From a virus, in the IMG/VR virus record IMGVR_UViG_3300032323_000801, positions 1 to 47,101 of that record: a stretch of 47,101 nucleotides of DNA, one strand, 5' to 3'. Numbering within the stretch: position 1 is the first letter of the stretch; each line of letters starts with the position of its first letter. A model generated the notes under the pieces. That model was not told the origin of the DNA and ran no database searches. It worked only from the letters and a program-made list of their open reading frames with translations. Position numbers and translations under genes: made by a program. Below are positions 5,173 to 9,845 of this stretch, one piece after another.

Positions 5173-5193
5173 GTAGAAATGTCTTTATATTTG
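5162..5193 (+). promoter_or_regulatory. Candidate Bacteroidota promoter for the homing endonuclease
   Basis: TTTG at 5162-5165, a spacer of 20 bases, then TATATTTG at 5186-5193. This matches both parts of the known TTTG-N19-21-TAnnTTTG promoter. The ATG at 5197 follows three bases later, so the transcript would be leaderless or nearly so. Confidence 0.5.
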
Positions 5194-5196
5194 TGT

Positions 5197-5976
5197 ATGA
5201 AATCGGGAGTTTATGCTATTATTTGTAGAATTACCAATAAATTCTACATTGGTTCGTCAAAGAATGTGTCTAAAAGATTAAATCATCATTTTAGAAGTTT
5301 AAAAAATAAAACACATAAAAATCCACATTTACAAAATGCATGGAATTTGTATGGCGAAGATAGTTTTTATAGTTTAATTGTCGAACATGCCGAAAACAAC
5401 ATTGAAAGAGAACAGTTTTGGATTGAGCAAACGCAATGTTATTTAAGAGAGGTTGGATTTAACAATACTAGAAAAGCAGATGCTCCCTTTGGATATAGAC
5501 ATACTAAAAAGGCTAGAGAAAAAATGTCTTTAATAAAAAAAGAACAATACGCTAAAGGTGTTATTGTTTCAAACTTTAAAAATAGAAAAGAAAGAAAGCA
5601 CTCTGAAGCAACAAAAGAAAAAATTAGGCTAGGCAAATTAGGGGAATTAAACCCTATGTATGGAAGATCTTTGACTAAAGAACAACGGAAAGTAAAAGGG
5701 ATAAACTTAAACTCAGTGCCGCGTTGGAATAAAGGTAAAACTTCTAAAGATGATCCTCGAATAGCCAAATTGGCTACCTGGAAAGGTAAATTGCCGCCTA
5801 ATGCTAAAAAATGTTGTTTAGTAAATAAACAAACAAATGAAAAAGTTTTTGCTAATTCACTAAAAGAATTAGCCCAAAAGTCTAATATACCTTTGGTTTC
5901 AATTAATAGAATTACAAAAGACAAATCACCTAAATATAAACATTACAAAATTATTTATGAAAGTAGAATTGATTAG
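5197..5976 (+). CDS. GIY-YIG homing endonuclease with NUMOD3 motifs
   Basis: A 259-residue protein (265 if read from the upstream ATG at 5179). The GIY-YIG nuclease domain starts at once: GVYAI and FYIG with the conserved arginine in SKRL, then a glutamate in NIEREQFW. Next come NUMOD3-type DNA-binding repeats (YRHTKKAREKMS; GELNPMYGRSLT) and a C-terminal NUMOD1-like stretch around SLKELAQKSN. This is the order of free-standing phage Seg/I-TevI-like enzymes, which cut cognate DNA lacking the gene and spread by repair. The gene is richer in A and T than its neighbours, consistent with transfer. I chose 5197 because the domain begins there and a -7 box overlaps the earlier ATG. Its last 20 bases overlap thyX, a likely target or neighbour of the homing site. 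Confidence 0.88.
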   Translation: MKSGVYAIICRITNKFYIGSSKNVSKRLNHHFRSLKNKTHKNPHLQNAWNLYGEDSFYSLIVEHAENNIEREQFWIEQTQCYLREVGFNNTRKADAPFGYRHTKKAREKMSLIKKEQYAKGVIVSNFKNRKERKHSEATKEKIRLGKLGELNPMYGRSLTKEQRKVKGINLNSVPRWNKGKTSKDDPRIAKLATWKGKLPPNAKKCCLVNKQTNEKVFANSLKELAQKSNIPLVSINRITKDKSPKYKHYKIIYESRID

Positions 5977-8866: not shown

Positions 8867-8906
8867 TGCAAAAGGTATTGGTTTTCGATACCTTTTGCAT
8901 ATTTTT
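8867..8906 (+). terminator. Intrinsic terminator after ribonucleotide reductase
   Basis: A perfect 12-base-pair stem, TGCAAAAGGTAT (8867-8878) with ATACCTTTTGCA (8888-8899), a nine-base loop, and then TATTTTT. It lies nine bases after the reductase stop and should end the left operon. The right side overlaps a promoter for the next genes. Confidence 0.8.
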
Positions 8907-8926: not shown

Positions 8927-9193
8927 ATGGAAGACAATTCAGCACCAATGAGAGAGTTGACACTCGGAGAAAAGAGATGTCACATTAACTTCAATCCGTC
9001 ATCTCATGATAAGATTGGGCAATTCAAACGTATGATGGCTGACGCTATCGACTTTTGCGATAGCGAAATTGAACACTCCTCACTAAGGGGGGATGGATAT
9101 TTGGAGCAAGTAAGATGCTTTAAGATTGCAATGGAGCATTTAGAAACAGCACAAATGTATGCGGTAAAAGGAATCGCTAAAGGGTTAAAGTAA
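8927..9193 (+). CDS. Acb2/Tad1-family protein, probable anti-CBASS cyclic-nucleotide sponge
   Basis: An 88-residue protein. The start MRELTLGEKRCHINFNPS, a helical middle, and an end of the type R-x5-A-x2-HLETAQMYAVKGIAK match my memory of the Acb2/Tad1 hairpin family common in Bacteroidota phages. Known Acb2 proteins form hexamers that bind and sequester the cyclic di- and trinucleotides made by CBASS, and some bind Thoeris signals too. No enzyme motif is present, as expected for a sponge. The next gene is a Tad2 protein joined by TAATG overlap, so the two form a counter-defence operon with its own promoter. The assignment rests on sequence pattern and context, and the ligand is unknown. Confidence 0.68.
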   Translation: MEDNSAPMRELTLGEKRCHINFNPSSHDKIGQFKRMMADAIDFCDSEIEHSSLRGDGYLEQVRCFKIAMEHLETAQMYAVKGIAKGLK

Positions 9194-9468
9194 TGGAGCA
9201 GCAATTAATGGATTTTGGCGGTGCGATTAAGGCAGCCAAAGAAGGTAAAAAAGTAGCCAGAATCGGCTGGAATGGTGCAGGGATGTTTGCTTACATCGTG
9301 CCAGCTGCGTCTTATCCTGCGCAAACAGGTGCTGCTAAGAGTTATTGGGGAGACCAACTTGTGCCTTATAGAGCATACTGGGCTTTGAAGACCGCACAGC
9401 AAGACGTGGCAACTTGGGCTCCAAGTGGCAGTGATTCTTTGGCTGAAGACTGGGTAATCGTAGATTAA
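9193..9468 (+). CDS. tad2: Tad2-family (DUF2829) anti-Thoeris protein
   Basis: A 91-residue protein of the DUF2829 family. Diagnostic features are FGGAIKAAKEGKKVARIGWNG near the N-terminus (residues 8-28), GMFAYIVP, and AEDWVIVD at the end. Some members, named Tad2, bind and sequester the signalling molecule made by the Thoeris ThsB protein, blocking activation of ThsA. The length is typical. It is joined to the Acb2-like gene by a TAATG overlap, so both are probably translated together early in infection. Not all DUF2829 proteins have been tested, so the anti-Thoeris role is inferred from the family. Confidence 0.85.
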   Translation: MEQQLMDFGGAIKAAKEGKKVARIGWNGAGMFAYIVPAASYPAQTGAAKSYWGDQLVPYRAYWALKTAQQDVATWAPSGSDSLAEDWVIVD

Positions 9469-9473
9469 AAAAT

Positions 9474-9718
9474 AATAGCTCCGTTGGCCAGGAGATCGTA
9501 AAACACAGATCGGCCTCTTAACAATGCCCAAAACATCTGTTCTCATCGTATAGGAGATAGGGTTAGCCTTCCCGACGTCGTTCAAAAAGGCAAACATAGT
9601 CAGATAGAGTAAAAGTAACTCGTGGGTGACGATGTGTAACAGAGGGGCGTTGATGTCCCTCTGTGAAATCAAAAGACCAAGAACCAGGTGCAGTACCTGG
9701 TCTGGCTGCAATTCTATT
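9474..9718 (+). ncRNA. Candidate structured RNA, multibranched, about 245 nt
   Basis: The 389 bases between the Tad2 gene and the next start hold no convincing gene but fold well on paper. A long-range closing helix joins AATAG (9474-9478) to CTATT (9714-9718), TTG (9484-9486) to CAA (9709-9711) and GCCAG (9487-9491) to CTGGC (9702-9706). Inside lie a perfect 8-bp hairpin (9639-9646 with 9657-9664) and a perfect 7-bp hairpin (9683-9689 with 9695-9701) that abuts the closing helix. Weaker hairpins lie at 9492-9517, 9541-9557 and 9562-9595. I do not match it to a known RNA class. It is probably transcribed with the anti-defence genes. Pairing was found by eye without energy calculation. Confidence 0.5.
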
Positions 9719-9817: not shown

Positions 9818-9845
9818 AGAGGGCCCAGGAAACTGGGCTCTTTTG
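9818..9845 (+). terminator. Hairpin with GAAA loop and T-run: terminator or leader attenuator
   Basis: An 11-base-pair stem (9818-9828 with 9833-9843, including two G-T pairs) closed by a GAAA tetraloop and ending in TTTT. It would stop transcripts coming from the anti-defence/RNA region. Since it lies 15 bases before the next start codon and after a possible promoter, it could also attenuate that gene. Confidence 0.6.

Follow-up and report, generated by a model that had tools for sequence, protein, structure and literature searches.

The DNA analysed here (the window) is a virus record of 47,101 bases, and all coordinates are window positions, with all features on the plus strand. Acb2 and Tad2 are genes known as blockers of bacterial immunity, and a member of each family lies in the window directly before the RNA studied here. 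The Acb2-like gene at 8927-9193 encodes 88 amino acids of the cyclic-nucleotide sponge family (Pfam PF24729, 33.2 bits against a cut-off of 27), and the Tad2-like gene at 9193-9468 encodes 91 amino acids of the Thoeris anti-defence 2 family (PF11195, 76.8 bits against a cut-off of 25); both genes, already named in the initial annotation, thus score above the Pfam cut-offs. The Tad2 start codon overlaps the Acb2 stop codon, and the RNA region begins a few bases 3' of the Tad2 gene. A terminator-like hairpin of 15 pairs, found by the terminator scan at 8867-8899, lies 5' of Acb2 and forms the upstream border of the anti-defence block. Another terminator-like hairpin, GCCCAG/CTGGGC followed by TCTTTT, was read from the sequence 3' of the RNA at about 9819-9843, and is graded as tentative because it is absent from the terminator scan listing. 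An Acb2-like gene is also found less than 1 kb from the RNA scaffold described below in L384, L207/L211 and L392, and a Tad2-like gene lies directly 3' of the scaffold in L236. One operon-like block made up of the abiF-like RNA, Acb2 and Tad2 is the best explanation of this arrangement. The nearest relatives of the window terminase belong to Flavobacterium and Cellulophaga phages, which points to a host probably within Flavobacteriia. Elsewhere in the window, a GIY-YIG endonuclease with NUMOD3 (5179-5976) is located immediately 5' of a ThyX gene; further genes of GIY-YIG-like type, T5orf172 among them, are found repeatedly close to the scaffold of relatives (L214, L239).

The region behind Tad2 had been described as a non-coding RNA with one multibranched fold, closed by a long-range helix. 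The structured RNA is real, and the fold is a different one: a single multibranch structure closed by 9487-9491/9702-9706 was ruled out, and two modules were recognised instead, at 9474-9594 and 9598-9710. The complement GCCAG/CTGGC is indeed present at 9487-9491/9702-9706, and as a helix it finds no support in the relatives. Positions 9487-9491 belong to a 5' hairpin, and relatives have CTCGCGA or TTGATCA as its loop; the 3' partner region, moreover, is not co-conserved with the 5' half. The proposed closing helix and its expected covariation are therefore unsupported. Both perfect internal hairpins were confirmed, with 8 pairs at 9639-9646/9657-9664 and 7 pairs at 9683-9689/9695-9701. The second of these had been thought to abut the closing helix, a position that follows from tRNA geometry, as it is a T-arm stacked on a 7-pair acceptor stem (9598-9604/9701-9707). 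The region was also correctly called non-coding. No reading frame is open in more than 8 of the 61 distinct relatives of the 5' half, and coding on either strand was rejected because the frames are not conserved; the relatives differ in length by amounts that break the frame, and each frame contains stops, which means that the 5' half does not encode a protein.

By folding energy, the whole region is only modestly better than shuffled sequence (z -1.99; 6 of 200 shuffles equally good), and its minus strand folds better than its plus strand (z -3.19). The stability resides in the 3' half (9595-9712, z -4.37). The 5' half is no more stable than shuffles by minimum free energy (z +0.20), yet it is the conserved part. 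Rfam at gathering score gave no match over the whole window. Weak matches to rteR, U1A, FasX and similar families were judged to be chance or terminator likeness.

Module A, at 9474-9594, is a conserved phage RNA scaffold that displays an exchangeable hairpin, and TTCTCATCGTATAGGAGATAG is shared by 84 viral contigs. An earlier search pattern that required GCNTCT was biased and gave 62 viral contigs, while a scaffold-only pattern with the apical part unconstrained gave relatives in these 84 contigs other than the window. Among 80 related phage loci, one (L014) contains a version of this RNA that is 91.6% identical over 154 bases. Common to the scaffold relatives are GATCGTAAAACAC, the exchangeable apical hairpin, GTTCTCATCGTATAGGAGATAG and a pseudoknot. 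No close DNA match to the scaffold was found in cultured phages.

Compensatory changes occur in the helices and the pseudoknot of this module, and covariation supports the pairs 9479-9482/9491-9494, 9505-9508/9537-9540, 9560-9562/9571-9573 and 9566-9570/9587-9591. The first set forms the 5' hairpin (9479-9494), CTCC-GTTGGCCA-GGAG with the self-complementary loop TGGCCA. Its four pairs are kept in nearly all relatives, with the exception of the L158-type forms, in which a different stem is read, and its stem varies among CTCC/GGAG, CCCC/GGGG, CCAC/GTGG, CCCT/AGGG and TCCC/GGGA. A palindrome of at least 4 bases is present in all 8 distinct 5' loops compared with 3.4 expected from shuffled loops, which is weak evidence because the loops are related by descent; it suggests loop-loop pairing between two copies of the RNA. 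The base of the apical stem covaries as ACAG/CTGT, ACGG/CCGT and ACAA/TTGT. The scaffold hairpin TCTC/GAGA (9541-9557; pairs 9541-9544/9554-9557) is invariant in the relatives found, its bases having been fixed by the search pattern. The pseudoknot (9560-9591) consists of S1, GGG 9560-9562 with CCC 9571-9573, and S2, GCCTT 9566-9570 with AAGGC 9587-9591. In relatives, S1 appears as GAG/CTC or GGG/CCC and in the 6-pair forms GGGTGT/ACACCC and GGATAT/ATATCC, while S2 appears as GCCTT/AAGGC, ACCTT/AAGGT, GATTT/AAATC and GCTTT/AAAGC.

AbiF is a HEPN RNase toxin and the ancestor of Cas13, and bacteria hold it inactive with a cognate hairpin RNA. The initial annotation had considered the region to be without a matching class; however, the apical hairpin of module A at 9505-9541 is the abiF RNA motif (Rfam RF03085), the AbiF antitoxin hairpin, and the 3' half is a tRNA-like element. 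The apical hairpin has the core GGCCUCUUAACAAUGCCCAAA, an outer stem at 9505-9510/9535-9540 and an inner stem at 9512-9514/9526-9528. It aligns with positions 1-37 of the family, whose consensus core GCCUCU-AAC-AUGC-CAAA, 3-pair inner stem and 6-pair outer stem are all found, with both stems perfect. The outer stem ACAGAU/AUCUGU replaces the consensus CCCGCC/GGCGGG and all six positions still pair, and RNAfold of the 9505-9541 piece alone gives the exact family structure. The match scores 27.0 bits, with an E-value of 0.019 over all 4,227 Rfam families at a permissive threshold and 2.4e-4 in a single-family search of the record; neither this score nor those of the best scaffold relatives (25-29 bits) reaches the Rfam gathering cut-off of 37 bits. 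No formal RF03085 membership is claimed, because the window match is below this cut-off, and the window RNA is described as one that probably works like an abiF antitoxin.

The best match of the window's own subtype is to AbiF RNAs of Bacteroidales. Two abiF RNAs of L270, a Paludibacteraceae locus encoding AbiF, have the same 20-base core as the window RNA, GCCTCTTAACAATGCCCAAA, with an outer stem that differs and still pairs. Searching 120 Flavobacteriaceae genomes with the Rfam model gave a match in the starting genome only, and most known examples of the exact window subtype are therefore from Bacteroidales. The same Paludibacteraceae locus, L350 and other bacterial loci contain several abiF RNAs each, some of them with no recognisable AbiF nearby, which suggests decayed or multi-copy AbiF islands in Bacteroidales.

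The 3' module at 9598-9710 is a degenerate tRNA-like element with the 7-pair acceptor stem given above, a D-arm-like GAGT/ACTC, a T-arm at 9684-9688/9696-9700 with a 7-base loop, and an inserted hairpin at 9639-9664. It departs from the canonical tRNA fold in its non-canonical T-loop, TGCAGTA, and the window gave no tRNA with ARAGORN. An intact tRNA-like element, AGTCAGGTGGCG...GGTTCGANTCC...CTGACTAC, often follows the scaffold at the same place in relatives, and that of L263 scores 32.9 bits with RF00005, over the cut-off of 29. Several loci (L263, L246, L230, L245, L229, L374 and L387) have a second structured RNA block, ACTATTAGTAAACTTTAGTACCC...GGGCTAAG...CTAAAGAACTAATAGTAA, between the scaffold and the tRNA-like element. 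Other structured blocks are found in L014/L227 (CACCGGTAATGGGAAGG...) and L208, and these extra blocks may be further decoys. The hairpin ACAGAGGGGC..TGTCCCTCTGT is present both in the tRNA-like part of the window (9637-9667) and in L014 (2665-2695), where an unrelated ORF ends; it may be a small hairpin that is mobile.

Relatives retain the scaffold but differ in the apical hairpin, which has been exchanged; these exchanged hairpins were compared with host sequences. AbiF was sought by protein family alone in 399 Flavobacteriaceae genomes and was present in 38 of them; the upstream sequence was read for 30. At least four variants of phage apical subtype recur 50-65 nt upstream of host AbiF, namely TGCCTCTTNACAATGCACACT, GCCTCTGATTCAAGCNCAA, CTTCCCGTNNGATCAG-GCGCTCAGG and TGCATACC-TGCAC. 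When five phage queries of different subtypes were compared with whole host loci on both strands, the best match always lay on the coding strand, 49-60 nt 5' of AbiF. Against 200 dinucleotide shuffles each, 15 of the 36 distinct apical domains matched at p<=0.01 and 19 at p<=0.05. The long-insert apical forms, CTCCTCTGATTTATCATGAAA and the bare loop in L385 had no match among the host AbiF RNAs found. In seven loci (L212, L219, L229, L225, L382, L384 and L388) a hairpin, ATCGTACCAGC...GCGAA or ...GACGAA, is inserted into the apical domain; no host counterpart was found for this form, which is possibly an AbiF-RNA subtype not yet sampled. The variant core GCCTCTGACANAAGCTCAA had no exact match in 395 Bacteroidota genomes, and its near variant GCCTCTGATTCAAGC adjoins AbiF in hosts. 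AbiF is encoded, within the fetched stretch, in 64 of the 108 bacterial contigs having the core GCCTCTTAACAATGCNCAAA. A representative AbiF from the matched bacterial loci is closely related to the protein solved as 8VZ6 (E 3e-119).

The same hairpin also exists in phages as a solo RNA. With the looser core GCCTCTNAACNATGCNCAAA, it was found in at least 120 viral contigs, counts with this core being lower bounds from a non-random sample, and none of these contigs has AbiF within the locus. Searches of the window and of about 120 whole viral records, seven cultured phages included, detected no AbiF gene; as a positive control for the toxin search, Abi_2 was found in 12 of 17 whole bacterial genomes carrying the RNA. 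The adjacent AbiF (Abi_2) gene that defines an AbiF type III-like toxin-antitoxin system is therefore absent from the window and the related viral records. In the seven cultured phages, Acinetobacter Acj61, Synechococcus S-SZBM1 and S-CREM1, Mycobacterium DmpstrDiver, Roseobacter CRP-143, Aeromonas T7-Ah and Salicola CGphi29, the match is above the Rfam cut-off at 50-58 bits. Acj61, S-SZBM1, S-CREM1 and DmpstrDiver have the RNA within or close to tRNA genes, and T7-Ah and CRP-143 have it between head genes. It is unannotated in most of the cultured-phage records, which have no AbiF gene (for example GU911519.1 77198-77234, MF919504.1 93344-93380 and MT740748.1 20552-20588). No abiF-like RNA was found in lactococcal phage sk1, which, going by the title of the paper cited for it, protects phage 712 from AbiF. 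In L314, L327, L342 and L357, the first three titled Synechococcus, the core is followed by an identical AGATTTGTGTTACGCTTCGCA with varied upstream flanks and no AbiF nearby; this is possibly a different, perhaps mobile element.

Among the matches listed, a tRNA gene lies within 500 bp of the solo abiF RNA in 73 of 120, compared with 27.8 expected for random positions in the same loci. Most of the tRNA-near viral RNAs are 12-40 bp from the tRNA, while only 1 of 108 bacterial loci has a tRNA gene within 500 bp. This tight linkage to tRNA and tRNA-like genes, the position of the window RNA against Tad2, and the relatives whose apical hairpins are without a host match or reduced to a bare loop speak for another explanation, in which the RNA serves the phage programme, for instance in the processing or attenuation of the tRNA-like array or the Tad2 transcript, and the abiF-like hairpin is just a convenient stable element. 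That explanation is unlikely, as it does not account for the base-level match of the exchangeable apical domains to AbiF-adjacent host RNAs at the same position, nor for the same motif in phages without the scaffold. Very improbable is the reading of the RNA as a functionless relict of an AbiF toxin-antitoxin system acquired by an ancestral phage. The degenerate tRNA-like half of the window and the drift of the outer stem from the Rfam consensus are in keeping with such a relict; however, the core bases and stems are kept via compensatory changes across many phages, and no trace of the toxin gene exists in any viral record searched.

The preferred interpretation, considered highly probable, is that the RNA of this locus acts in trans as an antitoxin mimic and neutralises host AbiF. 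Among the three roles suggested in the initial annotation, that of a decoy for a host defence system is now the best supported, and its target can be named as AbiF. Like a pseudo-ToxI-type mimic, the RNA resembles the host antitoxin RNA in sequence and structure, and the toxin is absent from the phage. The C. difficile abiF RNA carries two motifs and binds AbiF directly, which neutralises the toxin both in cis and in trans; broken stems abolish neutralisation and compensatory changes do not, so that pairing rather than stem sequence is needed (PMC12373285). PbAbiF is a dimer with one antitoxin RNA per monomer (review PMC12737573). Because of the trans neutralisation in C. difficile and the RNA binding of PbAbiF, a phage-made hairpin of the abiF class should bind host AbiF and keep the toxin inactive. 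According to the proposed mechanism, the AbiF-binding hairpin 9505-9541 would be made by the phage on a stabilising scaffold formed by the 5' hairpin, the small hairpin and the pseudoknot. The RNA would probably form the 3' end of a transcript shared with Acb2 and Tad2, from which it would probably be released by cutting at the adjoining tRNA-like element, and it might form a dimer via the self-complementary 5' loop. During infection it would occupy host AbiF and hold it inactive once the host antitoxin is lost, and related phages would swap the apical hairpin to fit the AbiF-RNA subtypes of their hosts. The AbiF toxin itself processes its cognate RNA (review PMC12737573), and therefore a bound mimic need not inhibit it fully; the RNA might then hijack AbiF rather than silence it, for instance in a complex cutting host RNA for the benefit of the phage. 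This possibility is judged quite improbable, as bound RNA neutralises the toxin in the sole system tested in trans (PMC12373285). A more elaborate version of the mimic reading is doubtful: a modular display scaffold, self-paired via the 5' loop, would show two exchangeable AbiF antitoxin hairpins to the AbiF dimer, within tRNA-punctuated cassettes of several structured RNAs that each act as a decoy for a different RNA-based host defence.

RNA mimicry against defence is already documented for ToxIN and CRISPR, and the window RNA can be compared with several known systems. It is like the abiF RNA (RF03085), RCd22 of C. difficile and AbiFr of Prevotellaceae (PDB 8VZ6) in the conserved core, the 3-pair inner stem and the 6-pair outer stem of free sequence. 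RCd22 acts in trans as an antitoxin, which is also the proposed role of the window hairpin. The latter is found without a toxin, in a phage, and is the apical domain of a larger scaffold with a pseudoknot and a tRNA-like element. Pseudo-ToxI of phage PhiTE (PMC3475682) is likewise a phage-encoded RNA antitoxin mimic and suppresses abortive infection; it imitates ToxI of ToxIN in the form of antitoxin repeats, whereas the window RNA is a single hairpin on a scaffold with the HEPN toxin AbiF as its proposed target. Racr RNA anti-CRISPRs (PMC10651486) are likewise solitary copies of a host defence RNA in phages, often near anti-defence genes, and they mimic CRISPR repeats, whereas the proposed model of the window RNA is the AbiF antitoxin. 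The 5' hairpin of L263 has a weak likeness to a CRISPR repeat (16.8 bits, E 0.94) that is not taken as evidence. The abiF sRNA of cyanophage S-CREM1 (PMC9964418) is likewise solo, inside the tRNA cluster of a lytic phage; it was reported as an Rfam hit only, with no link to AbiF antitoxin function, and has no scaffold. In the open-access literature, no paper was found that describes RNA mimicry against AbiF or connects the solo abiF RNAs of phages with inhibition of this toxin.

The presence of a solo abiF RNA in many unrelated phages, easily grown ones included, suggests that AbiF serves as a genuine and widespread defence against phages, one that has so far been hard to show directly. Additionally, part of the unassigned RNA in phage tRNA clusters is accounted for by abiF RNAs. 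The swappable antitoxin subtypes on the scaffold would provide a readout of the AbiF variants that a phage meets, and the scaffold RNA is a small part that might silence AbiF or related HEPN RNases.
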